NCBI GenBank assembly: GCA_001822075.1
Contig: MHPK01000005.1
Location: 1 to 33,980 of the forward strand
Direction: 5' to 3'
From: Candidatus Staskawiczbacteria bacterium RIFOXYB1_FULL_38_37
Lineage (GTDB): Bacteria > Patescibacteriota > Minisyncoccia > Minisyncoccales > Staskawiczbacteraceae
Length of the DNA stretch: 33,980 bases
Shown here: positions 3,262 through 33,980 of the stretch, piece by piece
Layout of the letters: the number at the start of each line of letters is the position of its first letter
How positions within the stretch are numbered: position 1 is the first letter of the stretch
Position numbers and translations under genes: made by a program
Notes under the pieces: model-generated
Seen by the model: the letters and a program-made list of their open reading frames with translations, nothing else
Told to the model about the DNA's origin: nothing
Databases searched by the model: none

Positions 3262-3858
3262 TTAATACGCGGGTTGCGATATTGCAGACAAAGTAGTTAA
3301 AGGGAAAACTCTTAAAAATGCCTTGCCAATAATATTTTTTCTCGGAACAACGCCCCATGCCCTTGAATCATACGAATACTGCCTGTTATCTCCTAAAACA
3401 AAATATTCTTCACTGCTTAAGGTTGCGCTCACGTCTCCAATTGTTTTTAAGTCGTCTGGCAAATAATTTTCATCTAAAATTGTTGTTCCTTGGCTGTTAG
3501 TTATTGACACTTGGCCGCTTTCTATATCAACAGTTTCTCCTGGAAGGCCAATAATCCTTTTAATAAATCTTTGCGAGGTGTCTTTTGGATATTTAAAAAC
3601 AACCACATCTCCTCTTTGGGGCTCTGAAAGCCTGTAGCTTAATTCATCTATAATAAGATAATCTCCTGTTTCAAAATTTGGCGACATAGACTCTCCTTTT
3701 ACTATAAAAGGCTGGAACAAAAAATAACGTATAGGCAAAACTATAACCAAAGCAATAAGGCCTATTTTCAAAATATCCCACGCAAAAGCAAAGTATTTTT
3801 TAAATCCTTTTTCGTTATTTAGCATAACTTCGCTGGGCTCTTGATTTTTTTGTTCCAT
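3262..3858 (-). CDS. lepB: Signal peptidase I
   Basis: 198 aa; one N-terminal TM segment, KGESMSPNFETGDYLIIDELSYR (catalytic Ser), GDVVVFKYPKD, RFIKRIIGLPGETV (catalytic Lys), YFVLGDNRQYSYDSRAWG. Confidence 0.95.
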   Translation of the reverse strand: MEQKNQEPSEVMLNNEKGFKKYFAFAWDILKIGLIALVIVLPIRYFLFQPFIVKGESMSPNFETGDYLIIDELSYRLSEPQRGDVVVFKYPKDTSQRFIKRIIGLPGETVDIESGQVSITNSQGTTILDENYLPDDLKTIGDVSATLSSEEYFVLGDNRQYSYDSRAWGVVPRKNIIGKAFLRVFPLTTLSAISQPAY

Positions 3859-3920
3859 ATTTTTTCTAAAAAAATTTATTCAACTGACTGAATTATAGCA
3901 TATTTTTTAGGGCGATGCAA

Positions 3921-3960
3921 GCCCCGTTAGAAGTCGTTTTAAAACGACTTCTAACGGGGC
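3921..3960. repeat. Perfect 40-nt palindrome, intergenic
   Basis: GCCCCGTTAGAAGTCGTTTTAAAACGACTTCTAACGGGGC is its own reverse complement with no loop. Confidence 0.95.
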
Positions 3961-3974
3961 AAGGCCCAAAACCA

Positions 3975-4018
3975 AAAAAAATCGGGAGCTACAAAAGCTG
4001 CAGCTCCCCTGAAAAAAA
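3975..4018 (-). terminator. Intrinsic terminator of the small HTH-like gene
   Basis: Minus strand GGGAGCTGCAGCTTTTGTAGCTCCCGATTTTTTTT: hairpin plus T8 immediately 3' of ORF 4028-4270. Confidence 0.8.
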
Positions 4019-4027
4019 GGTGATCGG

Positions 4028-4270
4028 TTAGCGGGATAAAGCGCCCGTGACAGAATGGCTATTCCGCCTTTTGCACCTTGGCTTAAAGCCACGGCCGTTT
4101 CCGTTGCCACTCAAATGTCCTTGGAGCAGACGATGCACCGCGAGTTCACTGATTTCCGTACCAAACTCTTGGCAAAATAGACGAGGGATTTCTTTGGCGC
4201 TAGCGCCATTGGAAAGAATGAATTCCCTTTGAGCAGAACTCAAGTGGCGGTGCGAATTTGTCTTGGACAT
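4028..4270 (-). CDS. Small putative helix-turn-helix protein (GC-rich cassette 1)
   Basis: 80 aa, MSKTNSHRHLSSAQREFILSNGASAKEIPRLFCQEFGTEISELAVHRLLQGHL..., HTH-like spacing and a basic tail. Own promoter and terminator; RBS-like AGAAAGGAATCGTT upstream of the ATG. Confidence 0.6.
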   Translation of the reverse strand: MSKTNSHRHLSSAQREFILSNGASAKEIPRLFCQEFGTEISELAVHRLLQGHLSGNGNGRGFKPRCKRRNSHSVTGALSR

Positions 4271-4474
4271 AACGATTCCTTTCTAACGCGAGGGTTTCGT
4301 TTCAGGAACAGAAAAGCGCCTCTTCCCTGTCCGACCCCGCAGTCACCATGAGAGGGTCTCGCTCAAGTCAATCGCATTCACGTCTCCTTTTGTTAGTTCC
4401 AAGTATGGCAAAAAACAATAGATTAAGGACCACCTCCTTTCTTAATATTCAAGATAAAATGTGCTGATTTATAA

Positions 4475-4502
4475 ATTATAGTTCTAAAAAAAATCTTGTC
4501 AA
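4475..4502 (-). promoter_or_regulatory. Consensus sigma70-type promoter for cassette 1
   Basis: Minus strand TTGACA-N16-TATAAT, about 205 nt upstream of the 4270 start codon. Confidence 0.8.
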
Positions 4503-10320: not shown

Positions 10321-10356
10321 AGAGGGACTAGGGCTTTCCTGGGCCCTCTTTTTTTA
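10321..10356 (+). terminator. Intrinsic terminator
   Basis: AGAGGGACTAGGGCTTTCCTGGGCCCTCTTTTTTT: hairpin followed by a T-run on the plus strand. Confidence 0.75.
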
Positions 10357-11082
10357 TGGAAAAATTTTTAAACCGCAATTTAAAAATTCCTCGTTTTTAG
10401 TGTGAAATTTTGTTTTTATTATATCAAAAGCCCTATTCTCCCTCCTTCCATCAAGAATAAAAACACCAATAGGATAAGCTACTAAATCAGCTATTTGTTG
10501 GCCCGCAACGTTTTGAACCTTTTGATTAAAGGACATATCTGCAAATTTAGATTGAATTTCTTCTTTTTTAAACCATTCGTGATCTTTCAATTTAAAATTT
10601 TCGTAAACTTCGGCTAATTTTCTATCATTATGTGTTTCCCTTGATTCAATTCTAAAAATTATTTTTTCGTTTGATCTCCCGAGAAACATAATCGCTCTTT
10701 CAAGTATAAACATCAAACATAAATTATACGGATTGTCAGGATCTGAATAATGATTTTTAAGGTTTGACTTATTTATCGCCGCTGCAATAATTTTAAAATC
10801 CGACAATTTCATTAAATTATCTAAATCATTATAAAATAATTCTCTTTTCTTTTTATCAACCAAACAGGAAAATTCTCCTTTTTGTTTTCTGATATCATAA
10901 GACCTGAGTATAATATTAGTTTTGCCAAAGTGTTTTATTTTTAATTCATTGACGCTTGGCTCAACCACATTAGAATAATATTCAAAATCAAAAATACAAC
11001 CCGCTAAAACAAACATTGGATAAGAGGAGTCTATCTTCTCTAAGCTATGATCGCCCGATTCATCTAAAAACATTATTTTCAT
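10354..11082 (-). CDS. DUF3800 domain-containing protein
   Basis: 242 aa; N-terminal MKIMFLDESGDHS and C-terminal AGQQIADLVAYPI are the hallmarks of DUF3800. Start codon overlaps the stop of the upstream R-M gene (TAATG). Confidence 0.85.
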   Translation of the reverse strand: MKIMFLDESGDHSLEKIDSSYPMFVLAGCIFDFEYYSNVVEPSVNELKIKHFGKTNIILRSYDIRKQKGEFSCLVDKKKRELFYNDLDNLMKLSDFKIIAAAINKSNLKNHYSDPDNPYNLCLMFILERAIMFLGRSNEKIIFRIESRETHNDRKLAEVYENFKLKDHEWFKKEEIQSKFADMSFNQKVQNVAGQQIADLVAYPIGVFILDGRRENRAFDIIKTKFHTKNEEFLNCGLKIFP

Positions 11083-13868
11083 TATTGATTTTCCACAATT
11101 TTAATTTCTTCTTCTGTGAGACCGTAAAGATTGTAAACCTCTTGGTCTATTTTTTTGTCGGTTTTTTCAATTTCAGATTTTATTAAATTCCATTTATTCG
11201 AATTCTCCGTCGCTTTCTGTAAATCCTTATTTAGTTTCAGTATTTTATCAACCAAAACTATAATTTGTTTTTGCTGATTTTTATCGCCAATATAAATCGG
11301 CACTGCGACTAGTGGCTCTTTATCTAATTGATAATTATTTCCCTGCATTTTTCCCTTATTTTTTAGCCAAAAAGCAGTAATTTTTGAATTCAAAATTGCT
11401 GTTAAATATTTTTGGTTTACACGTTCTGTCTTTATGATATAAAAAGTTGCTGACACATAACTGTCAAAATCTACATAAGAAAATGCTAAATTTAAACACT
11501 TTCTCGGAGTGATTATTTTTTCTCCTTTAAAAAATTTCTCCTTTTTAGCTCTATGAAGTCCATATGGCTTATTATCTGAAGTTATAACGGCTTTAAATTT
11601 ATCTAAATGCTTTTTGATATTCGGATAAGAATCGATTTTATCAGAATCCTTAAAACTTGAATCCGTGTATATAACCCATTCTTTATTATTAGAATCTGTA
11701 TACCACCTTTTTAATTCTTTCGTAGTATAAGATGGTTTTATTATGTCTAGTTCTTTTTTGTTGAGTTTTATTTGATCTTTTTCTTTTTCACTTATAACGA
11801 AAATTCCATCACCAACTGAGAAATTATTGCCTAGAATTTCTCGGCGTTCTCTATTCACAGAATCATGATGGTGATGAATACCATTCGAAATTTCGTCGTC
11901 TAAAATTTCAAAGTTTTTCTTTTTTAATATTTTAGACAGAATTGAAGCAACTTTTGTATTCTCAAAAGTTATATTCTTTCCTATCAAACTTTCGGGCTCA
12001 ATATTAGTTTTAATTTTTGTACCAAAAATATTGACTATCAGTTTATCTTCTGTAATATTTTTATCGATAATTTTCAAATAATCAACTTTGTAATTTTTAC
12101 CTGGTTTTTTCTTTTCAAAAACAAAAATCATTGTTTGTATTCCAGCTTGCTCAAAAACCTTATAATCGCCGAAATCAATAAAAGTTTTAAGCTCTCCATC
12201 TTTCAAAACTTTATCTCTGAATATGCTTGCTCCTGCATTAGTCACCCAACTATTTGGAGCAATAAAACCTAAAAGACCGTACTCTTTAAGTAAGTCAATT
12301 GATATACACGCAAACATTGTCCAAATATCCATTTTCCCCTGATAATATGGACTATTGTGCAACTCATCAAACGCACTTTTACTTACAAACTCTTTGATAT
12401 ACGGCGGGTTGCCGATTATTACATCAAAACCACTCTGTTTAAAAACTTCCGAAAAATTTTCTTGCCAATCAAAAGTTAAAGAGTTTCCGTTTCTTATGTT
12501 TTTCAACGGTAAAAATTTCTCCCTTTGGGTTAAGGCATTTATCAGCAAATTTAATCTTGTGATTTCAACTGCCTGCGAATCCAAATCAACACCATAAATA
12601 TTTTCATCAATAATTTGTCGTTTCAACAATTCTTCTTCTCTATATCCGAAACTTTTGTATTTTTCAGCAATGACATCAACGGCTTTTATTAAAAACGAAC
12701 CCGAACCGCAAGCTGGGTCTAAAACTTTAATCTTTTTTAATTCTTGGACGCTTTTACATTTTTCCAAAATTGGCCCTAAAGCATTTTTTACAATATAATC
12801 TACAATATAATTTGGGGTATAATAAATTCCCTGTTCTTTTCTTTTGCTGGCATCTTTTGAAACCGTTGTACCCTTTTTTGATTTTGATAATCTATGGCTT
12901 AAATAATTTTCATAAACAGCGCCTAAAACATCAGAAGGCATCGCCTTAAAATCATATTCATAATAACTCTCTTTTCCATAAAGAATACCAATCACATCTT
13001 TTGTGGCTCCACTGTATTCTTCCCATTTTTCAAAAGGATGTTCAGAAAATAAATTTGAATTATAATATTTATCCAATTCCCTAAATTTTTCAATCATCAT
13101 TCCATACAAAGTTCCTTTTTGTTCTTTTCTGCTTAAATATTCTCTTACCATGGGTCGTAAAGTTGGTTGTTCCACACCCCTGTCTTCTGCAACTCTTATA
13201 AACAAAAGCCTATCTAAAATCTTTTGTACACCTTCATCCAAATCGTCTGACTTAACATCTCTGTTCCACTGACTTAAATTTTTTATCAAAATTTCTCTAC
13301 ACTTTTGCAAATCTTTATACAAAAGTGAAGTTATGGGTATTTTTTGAAACTTTTTGCCTACTCTCTCGGCTTCCTTATCGAGTAAATCATCTTTAAACGC
13401 CTCTTTAGACAAAAGCCATAACTGGTCAAATCTATTCAAATAATCTTGATATGAAATTTCAAAAAATAATTTATCTGCCAGAGACCTGCTTATATCTTGT
13501 GCGTTAAAAACTTTGATGCTTTCAAAATCAGTTAAAACCGCCCAAGTAGCACCTTTGTTCCAAGAATAACGAACTGCCTGATCGGCATATTCTATTTTAT
13601 GCAAATCAGCCCTTAGCGGTTTTGCCTCCAAATAAAATTTGATTCTATCGTTTAAGTAAAATCCATAATCAACTCTTTGAGAAGAAATCGATTCTTCCAT
13701 AGAAATTTCTTTTTTATCGGAAAAATCCCAGCCCAATGCTTCAAAAAGGGGCTCTATAAAACCTCTCTTTGTTTCTTCTTCGCTGTAAGACTTTATTTTA
13801 CCAGAGCTTTTCTCTGATTCGTATTTTTCGACAAGTTGTTTTATTTTTTCTCTTGTTTCTTTTTGCAT
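11082..13868 (-). CDS. Type IIG-like restriction-modification enzyme (Eco57I/PglX-like N6-adenine methyltransferase with N-terminal nuclease-like domain)
   Basis: 928 aa; N-terminal VDYGFYLNDRIKFYLEAKPLRADL (HsdR_N-type PD-(D/E)xK pattern); KVLDPACGSGSFLIKAVD and VIIGNPPYIKE methylase motifs; C-terminal TaqI-type specificity region. Confidence 0.88.
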   Translation of the reverse strand: MQKETREKIKQLVEKYESEKSSGKIKSYSEEETKRGFIEPLFEALGWDFSDKKEISMEESISSQRVDYGFYLNDRIKFYLEAKPLRADLHKIEYADQAVRYSWNKGATWAVLTDFESIKVFNAQDISRSLADKLFFEISYQDYLNRFDQLWLLSKEAFKDDLLDKEAERVGKKFQKIPITSLLYKDLQKCREILIKNLSQWNRDVKSDDLDEGVQKILDRLLFIRVAEDRGVEQPTLRPMVREYLSRKEQKGTLYGMMIEKFRELDKYYNSNLFSEHPFEKWEEYSGATKDVIGILYGKESYYEYDFKAMPSDVLGAVYENYLSHRLSKSKKGTTVSKDASKRKEQGIYYTPNYIVDYIVKNALGPILEKCKSVQELKKIKVLDPACGSGSFLIKAVDVIAEKYKSFGYREEELLKRQIIDENIYGVDLDSQAVEITRLNLLINALTQREKFLPLKNIRNGNSLTFDWQENFSEVFKQSGFDVIIGNPPYIKEFVSKSAFDELHNSPYYQGKMDIWTMFACISIDLLKEYGLLGFIAPNSWVTNAGASIFRDKVLKDGELKTFIDFGDYKVFEQAGIQTMIFVFEKKKPGKNYKVDYLKIIDKNITEDKLIVNIFGTKIKTNIEPESLIGKNITFENTKVASILSKILKKKNFEILDDEISNGIHHHHDSVNRERREILGNNFSVGDGIFVISEKEKDQIKLNKKELDIIKPSYTTKELKRWYTDSNNKEWVIYTDSSFKDSDKIDSYPNIKKHLDKFKAVITSDNKPYGLHRAKKEKFFKGEKIITPRKCLNLAFSYVDFDSYVSATFYIIKTERVNQKYLTAILNSKITAFWLKNKGKMQGNNYQLDKEPLVAVPIYIGDKNQQKQIIVLVDKILKLNKDLQKATENSNKWNLIKSEIEKTDKKIDQEVYNLYGLTEEEIKIVENQ

Positions 13869-29457: not shown

Positions 29458-29540
29458 AAATTTATTCTTATAATACCTTATTTTGATAATTATTTAAAGG
29501 GGTAATCACCCAAAATTTTATTTTTTATTCTACAACAATT

Positions 29541-29594
29541 TTTTATGCAAAACAAAAGCCCTTTGCAAATCGTTGAAACGAAATACAAAGGGCT
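29541..29594 (-). terminator. Intrinsic terminator of GC-rich cassette 2
   Basis: Minus strand AGCCCTTTG...CAAAGGGCTTTTGTTTT. Confidence 0.75.
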
Positions 29595-29677
29595 GAAAGT
29601 CCGAGGGCAAGAGCAAAAGCTCAAAGTCCAAAGGACTAATTGACACTTACGAGGGCGACTGACGAGCCGTCGGAACC

Positions 29678-30310
29678 TCAGAGATCGCCGAGCCAGTCGT
29701 AGCTCCAGTCCCACCCCATACCACGGAAAGAGAGGTACAACACGCACCGGCCGCCGACCGGGCTCCGCAACGTCAGACCAAAAAAGTAGATGACGTTGCC
29801 GATTTTCTTGGCGCGACGTAACTTTTCGAGGATGCTCTCCTCGGGCTTGCCGTCGGCCTTGCATTTCTGCCAGTCCTTCCACAAGGATAGAAAGGCACGG
29901 CCCCCAAGCTGCTGATTCTTGCCAACTCTGGCGAGATGCATTTTCTCCTCGCCGTGGATACTGGTTTTGCCTTGCTGTAGGTGCGTCTCAAGGACGATTT
30001 GCTCAAAGTCCATCACATCAGGTTCGGGAACGCAATCCTCGTCGCCTTTCAAGCCGTTGCCGTCAGCAGGGCCCTTCCAGACCGTCCAACCCGCACCGAT
30101 GAACAACTCGGTAGGGTTGAAGACCTTGGGCAATGCCAATTTGAGGCAATGCCGAACAATGGTGGCCAATCCCTTGCTCACCAAGAGAACCTGCTCGGCG
30201 AGGTTGCCTTCAGACAGTTTCTTGATGTCGGCGTTGGTCCAACCCGCACGCCGAAAGGCCATCTTGAGTTCGTTTGCTTGTCCGACATCGAGCATCAGCT
30301 CATTGTCCAT
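29678..30310 (-). CDS. GC-rich cassette 2 protein of unknown function (C-terminal W/Y-rich motif)
   Basis: 210 aa from MDNELMLDVGQANELKMAFRRAGWTNADIKKLSEG (RBS AAGGAG before the ATG at 30310; the track start at 30382 extends into the leader). Ends IYFFGLTLRSPVGGRCVLYLSFRGMGWDWSYDWLGDL, then UGA. Confidence 0.75.
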   Translation of the reverse strand: MDNELMLDVGQANELKMAFRRAGWTNADIKKLSEGNLAEQVLLVSKGLATIVRHCLKLALPKVFNPTELFIGAGWTVWKGPADGNGLKGDEDCVPEPDVMDFEQIVLETHLQQGKTSIHGEEKMHLARVGKNQQLGGRAFLSLWKDWQKCKADGKPEESILEKLRRAKKIGNVIYFFGLTLRSPVGGRCVLYLSFRGMGWDWSYDWLGDL

Positions 30311-30383
30311 GATAAATCTCCTTGTCTTTGCGACTTTGTTTTTTTCAAACAGCGTCGCTGGGTTTAGATCGACTGCCAACATA

Positions 30384-30435
30384 GCAGTTATAGCCAGAAA
30401 ACACCGAAATATCAGTATCTTTTGGCTACAACTGC
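30384..30435 (-). promoter_or_regulatory. Conserved leader hairpin, copy A
   Basis: Minus strand GCAGTTGTAGCCA-N26-TGGCTATAACTGC: 13-bp stem with one G.U pair; near-identical to 33755-33806. Confidence 0.8.
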
Positions 30436-30484
30436 CGTTCGTAAGTAAATTTCAATATAAATGTGCTAATTTGACTATATATTA

Positions 30485-30513
30485 AGTATAGCATATTTAA
30501 ACGACCTTGTCAA
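30485..30513 (-). promoter_or_regulatory. Sigma70-type promoter of cassette 2, embedded in the 3' end of leuS
   Basis: Minus strand TTGACA-N17-TATACT; the -35 lies in the last leuS codons and the -10 just past the stop. Confidence 0.8.
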
Positions 30514-33016
30514 TAGCTACAAAATTTACCAGCTTATTCGGCACAAAAATTATTTTTTGGACTTCTTTGCCTTTCAATAATTGTTTTATTTTTTCTGATT
30601 TTAAAACTATCTTTTCTGCTTCTTTCTGCGATATATTGGCATCAACTTCTATTTTATCTCTTACTTTACCATTTATTTGCGCTATAAGTAAAACTTTTTC
30701 TTCTTTAATTAATTTTGCATTATATTCAGGCCATTTCTGCTGGCAGCATAATCCTTTAAATCCGGCATCTGCCCATAATTCTTCTGATAAATGCGGGGCA
30801 AAAGGCGACAAAATTTTTAAAAAGTCTGCCAGATCCTGAATTTCTATGCCGTCTTTTGACAACTGTCCCGACTTTGTCGAGGATCCACGACCCCGATTTA
30901 TCGTGGGTCGGGACCACGCATTTACAAATTCCATCAATGAGCTCACGGCTGTATTAAATTTCATCAGCTCTATGTCTTCTGAAACTTTTTTTATTGTTTT
31001 ATGAAGATTTTTTTTCAGCTGTTCGTCAGTTTTTTCAGACAATCCCTTTTTTACAAATAAATTATAAATTTTTTCTAAAAATCTTCTGCTGCCTATAACT
31101 CCTTTTGTGTCCCAGGGAATCATCTGGTCAAACGGCCCCATAAACATTTCATAAATTCTCAAAGTGTCAGCTCCATATTGTTTTACAACTGAATCCGGAT
31201 TTATAACATTTCCCTTTGACTTTGACATTTTAATACTGCCCTCTCCTAATACCATTCCATGAGAAGTTCTTTTTTTATAGGGCTCTGGCCCAATTTGCTG
31301 GGGAACTGCTTTAATATCCCATAAAAATTTAAAAATAAATCTAGAATATAATAAATGTAAAGTCGTGTGCTCCATTCCGCCGTTATACCAGTCAACAGGC
31401 ATCCAGCGCTTTAATAGTTTGTCGTCTGCAAGTTTTTTATTATTTTTTGGGTCGCAATACCTCAAATAATACCAATTAGACCCTGCCCAGTTTGGCATTG
31501 TGTCGGTTTCTCTTTTTGCCGGGCCTTTGCATTTGGGGCATTTTACATTCACCCAGTTTTTAACAGAAGCCAAAGGCGACTCTCCTGTTTTTGTTGGCTT
31601 ATATTTTTTTATTTTTGGCAGTTCTACAGGCAACTTTTTTTCTGAAACCGCCTGCCAGCCATGCCCGCCGGGCAGGCTGGCGCATTTTTCGCAATATATC
31701 AAGGGTATGGGCTCTCCCCAATAATGCTGCCTTGAAAAAACCCAGTCGCGAAGCTTGTAATTTATATTAGGAGAAGCTGAACCTTTTCCATTCAACCAGG
31801 CTGTAATTAACGGTCTTGCAGTTGTAGAAGTCATGCCATCAAACTGCATTGAATTATATAATATGCCCTCGCCCTCATAGCACTCTTCTAAATTTTTAAT
31901 TTTTTGCGCTATTGATTTGTCATTCGGCTCAATGGATGTGCGCAAAGGTATTCCATATTTTTTAGCCATTTTAAAATCTCTTTTATCATGGGCATCGGCA
32001 AAAACAGCTCCTGCGCCGTAATGCTCTAAAACAAAATCAGCTGTCCAAATAGGCATCTCTTCTCCTGTGGCAGGATTTTTGGCTATAATTCCTTTCAGCT
32101 GAACACCAGTAACATCTCTTTCTTCGTTTGCGCGGTCAGCTTCTGAAATATTTTTTGATTTTTGCCTATATTCTAAAACTTCTTCTATGTTTTCAATTTT
32201 ATTTTTATGCTTGTCTATAAAACTGTGCCCCGGAGACAATATCAAAAAAGTGCCGGAAAATATTGTATCAATTCTTGTTGTAAAAACATCGATTGTGTCT
32301 TCAACTCCTTCTATTTTGAAATTAATCTGGACTCCATGGCTTTCGCCTATCCAATCTTTTTGCTGAGTTTTTATTCTCTCCAAAAAATTAACATCATCTA
32401 AATCTTTAATTAATCTGTCTGCATATTTTGTAATTTTTATCATCCATTGCTCTTTTTCCTTTTTTTCAACTTTAGCCCCGCATCTCTCGCACTTGCCGTT
32501 TACAACTTCTTCGTTAGCTAAACCAATTTTGCAGGAAGGACACCAGTTTATATCAATCTTTGCCTTGTATGCCAATCCTTTTTTAAAAAGCTGGATAAAT
32601 ATCCATTGAGTCCACTTATAATATTTGGGGTCTGTTGTGTTTACTTCTCTTGCCCAGTCAAAAGACAGCCCCAAACTCTTCATTTGGCGCCTGAAGTTAT
32701 CTGTATTCTTTTTGGTAACAATAGAAGGATGAACCCCTTTTTTTATTGCATAATTTTCTGTAGGCAAACCAAAAGCATCCCACCCAATGGGAAACAAAAC
32801 ATTGTAATCTTGCATTCTTTTCTTTCTGGCTATTGTATCTAACGCGACATAGGGCCTGCAATGTCCCACATGAAGCCCGTCGCCCGAAGGATATGGAAAT
32901 TCAAGCAAAAGGTAAAACTTTTTCTTTTTAGAGCGGTTTTTGGCTGAAAACGCATCAGAATCATACCACTTCTTCTGCCACTTACTTTCTATTTTCTTTG
33001 GATTATACTTTGCCAT
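30497..33016 (-). CDS. leuS: Leucyl-tRNA synthetase
   Basis: 839 aa from MAKYNPKKIESKWQKKWYDSDAF; EFPYPSGDGLHVGHCRPYVALD (HIGH-like), GWDAFGLPTENYAI, KMSKSKGNVINPD (KMSKS). The track ORF 30497-33724 is an artificial fusion with the upstream cassette. Confidence 0.97.
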   Translation of the reverse strand: MAKYNPKKIESKWQKKWYDSDAFSAKNRSKKKKFYLLLEFPYPSGDGLHVGHCRPYVALDTIARKKRMQDYNVLFPIGWDAFGLPTENYAIKKGVHPSIVTKKNTDNFRRQMKSLGLSFDWAREVNTTDPKYYKWTQWIFIQLFKKGLAYKAKIDINWCPSCKIGLANEEVVNGKCERCGAKVEKKEKEQWMIKITKYADRLIKDLDDVNFLERIKTQQKDWIGESHGVQINFKIEGVEDTIDVFTTRIDTIFSGTFLILSPGHSFIDKHKNKIENIEEVLEYRQKSKNISEADRANEERDVTGVQLKGIIAKNPATGEEMPIWTADFVLEHYGAGAVFADAHDKRDFKMAKKYGIPLRTSIEPNDKSIAQKIKNLEECYEGEGILYNSMQFDGMTSTTARPLITAWLNGKGSASPNINYKLRDWVFSRQHYWGEPIPLIYCEKCASLPGGHGWQAVSEKKLPVELPKIKKYKPTKTGESPLASVKNWVNVKCPKCKGPAKRETDTMPNWAGSNWYYLRYCDPKNNKKLADDKLLKRWMPVDWYNGGMEHTTLHLLYSRFIFKFLWDIKAVPQQIGPEPYKKRTSHGMVLGEGSIKMSKSKGNVINPDSVVKQYGADTLRIYEMFMGPFDQMIPWDTKGVIGSRRFLEKIYNLFVKKGLSEKTDEQLKKNLHKTIKKVSEDIELMKFNTAVSSLMEFVNAWSRPTINRGRGSSTKSGQLSKDGIEIQDLADFLKILSPFAPHLSEELWADAGFKGLCCQQKWPEYNAKLIKEEKVLLIAQINGKVRDKIEVDANISQKEAEKIVLKSEKIKQLLKGKEVQKIIFVPNKLVNFVAIDKVV
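30865..30914. repeat. Nested inverted repeat inside leuS
   Basis: GTCCCGAC (30865-30872) / GTCGGGAC (30907-30914), inner CCACGA/TCGTGG. Encodes SRPTINRGRGSSTKSGQLSK in frame. Confidence 0.85.
31654..31681. repeat. Second hairpin insertion inside leuS
   Basis: GCCAGCC-A-TGCCC-GCC-GGGCA-GGCTGGC; encodes SLPGGHGWQA in frame between CEKC and SEKKLPVELP. Confidence 0.85.
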
Positions 33017-33042
33017 AATTATTCTTATAATATCATAAAAAT

Positions 33043-33084
33043 GTAAAAAAAGAAGCCCTGTTTTGCAATTGCAAAACAGGGCTT
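33043..33084 (-). terminator. Intrinsic terminator of cassette 3 (perfect palindrome plus T-run)
   Basis: AAGCCCTGTTTTGCAATTGCAAAACAGGGCTT (33053-33084, perfect palindrome) followed on the minus strand by CTTTTTTTACA, just upstream of leuS. Confidence 0.85.
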
Positions 33085-33151
33085 TACGCCAAGGGTTCAA
33101 GGAGCCAAGATTCAACGAAGAACCAAGTTTCCAAGTGTCCAAGGAACGAAG

Positions 33152-33694
33152 ATTACTTGCGAGAACCCACGAGCCGAACGTTGGAGCTGAAACCGCCGCC
33201 AAGCCAGCCGTAGCGCAGACACCAACGCTTACCAACCCAGTCGAGGCAAAACACACAGCGGCGCCCCGCCAGACTTCGGAAAACACTAAATAGTGTTTCC
33301 GCCATTCTATAGGAATCCTTTCCTGATTCCGAAGCATTGCCTCGGCATGGCGCAAACCAGTAAGAGCGTCTTGCTCCTTGGCGCGCCTGACCATTTCTTC
33401 GCCGTTAACGAAGTTCTCACCTTCTCGTAGAAACTCGTGCAAGGTCGGTTTAAACTCTTCTTCGGCTTCCACCAGCTCCACACAAGTCCAGCCGGTCATA
33501 TCGCGGTCAATTTTGGCTACCAGCCGGAACACGAGGTCGGTCACGACCTTTGCGACCCCAGTCAGAACCAGCATTAGCTGGTCCAGCGCTCCATTGGAGT
33601 TTTGACCAAGGGCAGTGACGTGGGCGGACGTATAGCCGGCCATTTCAAGAGATTCCATCAACTGATGCGTCTGACCCTCTGAATAGGAAGACAT
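33152..33694 (-). pseudogene. GC-rich cassette 3 protein, frameshifted (paralogue-like to cassette 2)
   Basis: Begins MSSYSEGQTHQLMESLEMAGYTSAHVTALGQ (RBS GGAAGGAAG). Frame is open to ...RIPIEWRKHYLVF; the family-like C-terminus is in another frame: SVFRSLAGRRCVFCLDWVGKRWCLRYGWLGGGFSSNVRLVGSRK-stop (TAA at 33152-33154). Confidence 0.7.
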
Positions 33695-33754
33695 GTCTTC
33701 CTTCCTTTCTGGCACATGTGCCAATCAAGATTAACTGTGCTTACTGCCTACGTA

Positions 33755-33806
33755 GCAGTTATAGCCAGAAAACACCGAAATATCAGTATCTTTTGGCTAT
33801 AACTGC
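33755..33806 (-). promoter_or_regulatory. Conserved leader hairpin, copy B
   Basis: Minus strand GCAGTTATAGCCA-AAAGATACTGATATTTCGGTGTTTTC-TGGCTATAACTGC: perfect 13-bp stem. Confidence 0.85.
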
Positions 33807-33869
33807 CTCCGGCCAGCTGACGGATCGCAAGTAAATTTCAATATAAATGTGCTAACTCTCTATATTTTA

Positions 33870-33898
33870 AGTATAGCATATTTAAGCAACCTTGTCAA
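33870..33898 (-). promoter_or_regulatory. Sigma70-type promoter of cassette 3
   Basis: Minus strand TTGACA-N17-TATACT; surrounding sequence nearly identical to 30485-30513. Confidence 0.8.
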
Positions 33899-33980
33899 CT
33901 ACCTCGTAATGGTTCAATAGCTTGGACGCAGTCTATGGTATATATTATGTATATGTCATACACTAAGAATCCTTCTCTGC

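Follow-up and report, generated by a model that had tools for sequence, protein, structure and literature searches.

What reads a Shine-Dalgarno (SD) sequence if the 16S rRNA of the cell is unable to pair with it? A GC-rich cassette directly upstream of the signal peptidase gene lepB makes this question testable. The cassette lies in the window, i.e., the whole stretch of 33,980 nucleotides that was analysed, which is contig C5 of a 762-kb Patescibacteria MAG (7 contigs, 98.8% complete, 37% GC). A promoter, a leader, an SD-led gene for 80 amino acids and a terminator follow one another on the minus strand, and lepB comes next (Table 1).

We read this arrangement as an autonomous transcription unit for a small, very basic HTH protein, most likely a DNA-binding regulator, and as a resident pth/lepB cassette of one family that belongs to a wider class of GC-rich, SD-led cassettes. 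Going by sequence and structure prediction, we consider this reading probable by a small measure. The promoter, the leader, the SD-led gene, the terminator, the recurring site, the conserved leader block, the HTH fold prediction and the common start motif on which it draws are all observed.

Table 1. Features of the lepB cassette and its downstream neighbour (positions in the window)
Feature	Position	Strand	Basis
lepB (signal peptidase I), conserved downstream neighbour, no SD	3262..3858	-	ORF, family comparison, SD pairing
Intrinsic terminator GGGAGCTGCAGC...GTAGCTCCC with T-run	3974..4008	-	read from sequence
CDS, 80-aa basic protein with predicted HTH	4028..4270	-	ORF, alignment, AF2 prediction
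Shine-Dalgarno sequence AGAAAGGA of the CDS	4277..4284	-	sequence, SD pairing
Conserved leader element GTCGGACAGGGAAGAGGC, hairpin GGACAGGGAA-GAGGCGC-TTTTCTGTTCC	4305..4335	-	pattern search, folding
Mini-ORF MRLT-stop (ATG CGA TTG ACT TGA) behind AAAGGAG	4363..4377	-	sequence; not conserved
SD-like leader block AGAAAGGAGGTGGTCC	4427..4442	-	near-complement of the canonical 16S 3' end
Start-region motif AGCACATTT (orthologues: AGCACMTTT / AGTACCTTTT)	4457..4465	-	motif comparison, promoter-plus-motif counts
Sigma70-type promoter TTGACA-N16-TATAAT	4475..4502	-	sequence; similar promoters at other family lepB cassettes

The 80-aa gene and the pth/lepB site

The consensus promoter described in a first-pass annotation of this DNA is present on the minus strand at 4502-4475 (-35 TTGACA at 4502-4497, spacer of 16 nt, -10 TATAAT at 4480-4475). 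That it would be very strong for a gene of 80 amino acids is right as a statement about its sequence. The CDS has about 50% GC at each codon position, against 43/35/29% in the adjoining lepB.

Two clear orthologues of the encoded protein were found (in G006 and G002), with 43-46% identity over most of the protein, and both are located directly upstream of lepB. GTDB contigs contained the same two orthologues only. The two named relatives are one Ca. Staskawiczbacteria MAG and one other Patescibacteria MAG. A sample of 384 genomes of the class yielded no genuine further homologue, and the profile matches L008 and L009 were discarded, since they lie antisense to topA and dprA-like genes. IMG/VR, phages and plasmids contained no homologue either, and a phage, plasmid or viral origin was rejected on this basis. 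Comparison of the cassette with a defence-system library gave nothing convincing.

Within the family, position, start signal and one common HTH core served to align a set of 15 proteins. Their identity to the 80-aa protein is 17-39%, and all are basic, with a net positive charge. Conservation of the ORF in relatives, on which the first-pass annotation had made its reading depend, is thus borne out by two orthologues at the sequence level and by 15 proteins aligned on the HTH core.

With the 15 sequences as input, AF2 predicted three helices (residues 12-20, 28-36 and 42-55), with pLDDT values of 89-94 over residues 11-50. The earlier description of the product as HTH-like agrees with this predicted three-helix core and with weak profile similarity to HTH domains. 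The similarity, to HTH_32/HTH_33, IS630-type and Abp1 HTH domains, is sub-threshold, and all matches of sequence and fold, most of them to HTH domains, are weak (Foldseek E-values of at least 0.2, PDB profile E-value 0.0076). Pfam, NCBIfam and PHROGs gave no match above the curated cut-off, only weak ones. The protein therefore resembles the homeodomain-like/winged HTH domains (HTH_32/HTH_33; IS630-type transposase, CENP-B/Abp1) in its predicted three-helix core, its basic character and its weak profile similarity. It differs from them in that it is below every curated cut-off, and in that it is a protein on its own, which has a basic tail but lacks a catalytic domain. The product is most likely a DNA-binding regulator. 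The locus defines a new family of HTH proteins that are small and basic and whose genes have a conserved element in the leader.

We located lepB in 33 of the 35 family genomes and read its upstream region in 30. At most of these 30 loci, pth and lepB have a few hundred GC-rich bases between them, which as a rule include a promoter, an SD-led, GC-rich ORF for about 60-107 amino acids and a terminator. Loci without a cassette are L107, L111 and L120. The distance matrices for the HTH proteins and for LepB are uncorrelated (r 0.14, p 0.16); strict vertical inheritance is therefore not demonstrated, and exchange within the family is possible.

Some details of the site vary. Two or more cassettes in tandem are found between pth and lepB at L105, L110, L121, L123 and L124. 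At L121 (in G034), near-identical terminators are present on both sides of the cassette. In the window, a near-perfect palindrome (GCCCCGTTAGAAGTCGTTTTAAAACGACTTCTAACGGGGC, about 3920-3960) is located between the cassette terminator and lepB, and L116 has similar arms upstream of its lepB.

The leader RNA

Transcription from a start near 4468 would give a leader of 198 nt. The long leader of the first-pass annotation stands, with its length of about 205 nt adjusted accordingly. The ribosome-binding-site-preceded mini-ORF MRLT, also noted there, is present in the sequence, but it is not a conserved leader peptide. MRLT is not kept in relatives: L098, L100 and L104 are without such a mini-ORF, and others have unrelated ones. 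As a conserved feature, a leader peptide, and with it a leader-peptide attenuator, was rejected for this reason.

The leader block CAGRGAAGAGGC, usually inside a hairpin, is more conserved than the encoded protein. The pattern GTCGGRCAGRGAAGAGGC, with at most one mismatch, occurs in exactly 3 of 247 genomes of the order, and these are the three with close homologues. About 14 loci of the family have the shorter core CAGAGAAGAGGCA, or a variant close to it, roughly 50-85 nt upstream of the start codon. Eight loci agree at every position of a 13-nt leader core, whereas protein identity to the 80-aa protein is 17-39%. The extended leader pattern had no match in 379 genomes of the class outside the family. 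Among the order and class genomes searched, the leader block is confined to this family.

At most loci the leader core is in a hairpin, with GAGGC in the loop. RNAalifold found no consensus pairs in an ungapped leader alignment, and we therefore compared hairpins folded per sequence with shuffled sequences. The summed hairpin energy is -116 kcal/mol, and none of 500 joint shuffles went below -101 kcal/mol; in this per-sequence folding the hairpin is missing at about five loci. An Rfam search of the leader gave no family match, and no known riboswitch or RNA element.

These features suggest how the cassette may work. The strong promoter would produce a leader RNA of about 200 nt, and the conserved hairpin, which lies some 50-60 nt upstream of the start codon, could set translation of the HTH protein. 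The HTH protein might itself feed back on its own translation. It would be expected to bind DNA, its target being perhaps its own promoter or its own leader.

Canonical SD sequences without an anti-SD

The 3' end of the 16S rRNA in this genome reads GUGGAUCAUUUUUUU/GGATCATTTTTTT, without CCUCC. We rejected a hidden anti-SD after reading the gene past two introns to the tail GUGGAUCAUUUUUUU. The same kind of tail is present in the other family genomes with a readable 16S 3' end. The tails of about a dozen other families in the order have different sequences and are also without CCUCC. The single case of a canonical 16S rRNA, in G001, was traced to a contaminant contig (65% identity). As a separate observation, the 16S gene (L007, L016; G000:C6, about 38000-43000) has at least two introns with LAGLIDADG-like, endonuclease-like ORFs.

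SD-like motifs before the ORFs of this genome are at background (7.6% versus 9.9% in the control), in keeping with a 16S rRNA that has no anti-SD. Mean SD pairing energies with the canonical tail are -7.2 kcal/mol for the lepB-adjoining cassettes, versus -0.6 for lepB and -0.2 for pth, a contrast that is inflated because cassette starts were partly chosen by their SD. The unbiased comparison is a GC-binned count at the leftmost ATG: SD-like motifs were found for about 7% of ORFs with GC below 0.40, versus 8 of 18 at GC 0.44-0.52. Side by side in one genome, two gene classes obey opposite start rules, and the class with SD recurs across genera. The SD blocks of the leaders pair at -15.5 kcal/mol with the canonical tail, versus -5.6 kcal/mol with the family's own, and SDs tuned to the poly-U tail of the family were rejected on this basis. 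Because canonical SDs are kept while the cell's own 16S rRNA is without an anti-SD, a second initiation mode would have to operate in this cell, or else the cassette messages would have to be put to a special use.

Anti-SD loss is already known in scattered bacteria, the SDs of their genes being generally gone too. Among the 128 exceptional organisms reported, those without a perfect anti-SD are in general also without a recognisable SD (PMC6107228), and organisms have been classified by CCUCC and SD use (PMC10783764). The genome studied here is like these bacteria in its 16S tail without CCUCC and in its genes without SD, but differs from them in that strong canonical SDs persist in one distinct gene class. 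The main texts of both papers contain neither "candidate" nor "CPR", and the second is also without "Patescibacteria". Our literature search, which had most subscription papers outside its reach, returned no report of anti-SD loss in an order of Patescibacteria or of such a mixed genome, and we do not claim novelty for anti-SD loss itself in this order. According to a review, Era, which binds GAUCACCUCC, has been lost from most CPR (PMC10582724); this is consistent with anti-SD loss, which the review does not report.

The cassettes could be written for ordinary bacterial machinery and expressed on canonical ribosomes elsewhere, after DNA or RNA has passed from the presumed episymbiont to its host. 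Such host-directed expression would, if true, be of great interest. It agrees with the consensus sigma70 promoter, the strong SD, the higher-GC codons and the intrinsic terminator, with SDs that fit the canonical 16S tail and not the cell's own, and with the absence of SDs from the adjacent lepB and pth. It also agrees with the persistence of SD-led cassettes in a sampled order in which the anti-SD is missing. In the G006 leader the match to the canonical 16S end even extends past the SD (AGAAGGGAGGTGATCCAGC), but this is a single case. The transfer route, the host and a secretion signal are conjectural, however, and the contrast in SD strength is inflated by the choice of starts; we consider host-directed messages quite unlikely. 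It is also unlikely that the order, its anti-SD lost, keeps a separate gene class with canonical promoters and SDs because these messages are destined for canonical ribosomes, be it those of a host after nucleic-acid transfer or a so far unrecognised second initiation system in the same cell.

The SDs, GC content and promoters might instead be donor leftovers without present use, if SD-using bacteria had donated cassettes horizontally, again and again, to a hot spot between pth and lepB. GC-rich cassettes in a genome of 37% GC, their tandem copies at the site, the fast divergence of the proteins and the uncorrelated HTH and LepB distances would all fit. Against this, the leader block and the HTH family are restricted to one family that is itself without an anti-SD, GTDB contigs, IMG/VR, phages and plasmids contained no donor, and many genera have undamaged ORFs and SDs at this very site. 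Given that site, leader and intact ORF recur and that these searches gave no outside donor, we regard imported relics as improbable. Still another reading makes the transcript itself functional, for example as a decoy or sensor that binds ribosomes or other RNA by its SD-like block and GAGGC hairpin, with the protein secondary. The leader core is indeed more conserved than the protein, and the SD-like leader block lies a long way from the CDS, with no ORF behind it at several loci. Yet the ORF of the listed loci is intact, has its own SD and keeps the HTH core and the basic tail, and the leader matches no Rfam family, which makes an RNA product very unlikely. The preferred reading is an autonomous unit for a basic HTH protein, resident at pth/lepB.

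The start motif and other cassettes

AGCACMTTT has five sites in a 370-kb sample of this genome (the window included). Three of the five are 4-18 nt downstream of promoter-like sites, of which there are only 99 in the 370 kb. All three are on contig C5, and two of the three are paralogous. Across 246 genomes of the order, a promoter followed by AGCACMTTT was found at 39 places or so, versus 3 for the reversed control. Enrichment of AGCACATTT at other cassettes, which the first-pass annotation had set beforehand as a condition, is therefore present. Most of the fetched promoter-plus-motif places begin a GC-rich ORF with a strong SD, and the proposed cassette class with one layout exists in this sense. 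Other GC-rich, SD-led genes of the genome have similar promoters without the start motif, and the motif therefore marks only a subset of the class. Promoter and start motif provide a handle for finding cassettes of the same class in other genomes.

The suggested kinship with the cassettes that flank leuS (29500-30510 and 33040-33900, both on the minus strand) holds in part. Like the lepB cassette, they have a promoter, a AGCACATTT start, a leader, an SD, a GC-rich CDS and a terminator; unlike it, they have a leader body of the GCAGTYGTAGCCAAAAG type, and their products are unrelated. Because the leader body differs, only the promoter/start block is common.

Several further observations were made on other cassettes. 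Cassettes of several genomes (L083, L084, L088 and L089) have leaders of a second type, with TAGCCAAAAG close to the 5' end, and so do the leuS-flanking cassettes at about 30380-30440 and 33750-33830. The ORF of the cassette before leuS runs in frame through the terminator into leuS (30497-33724, minus strand, 1075 amino acids in total). Part of this same cassette resembles the end of the sister cassette's protein in another frame, a possible frameshift or decay. Two GC-rich cassettes elsewhere in the genome (L048:9962-10920 and L055:17415-18207) have a common leader end, GGTCCAWAAGACAAGGAGAGTTGAGATGAAAGGNATG, and protein starts that resemble signal peptides. Finally, the minus strand of the window has a 928-aa ORF with the look, by eye, of a type IIG restriction-modification protein, immediately followed by a DUF3800-like ORF of 242 amino acids (10354-13868).
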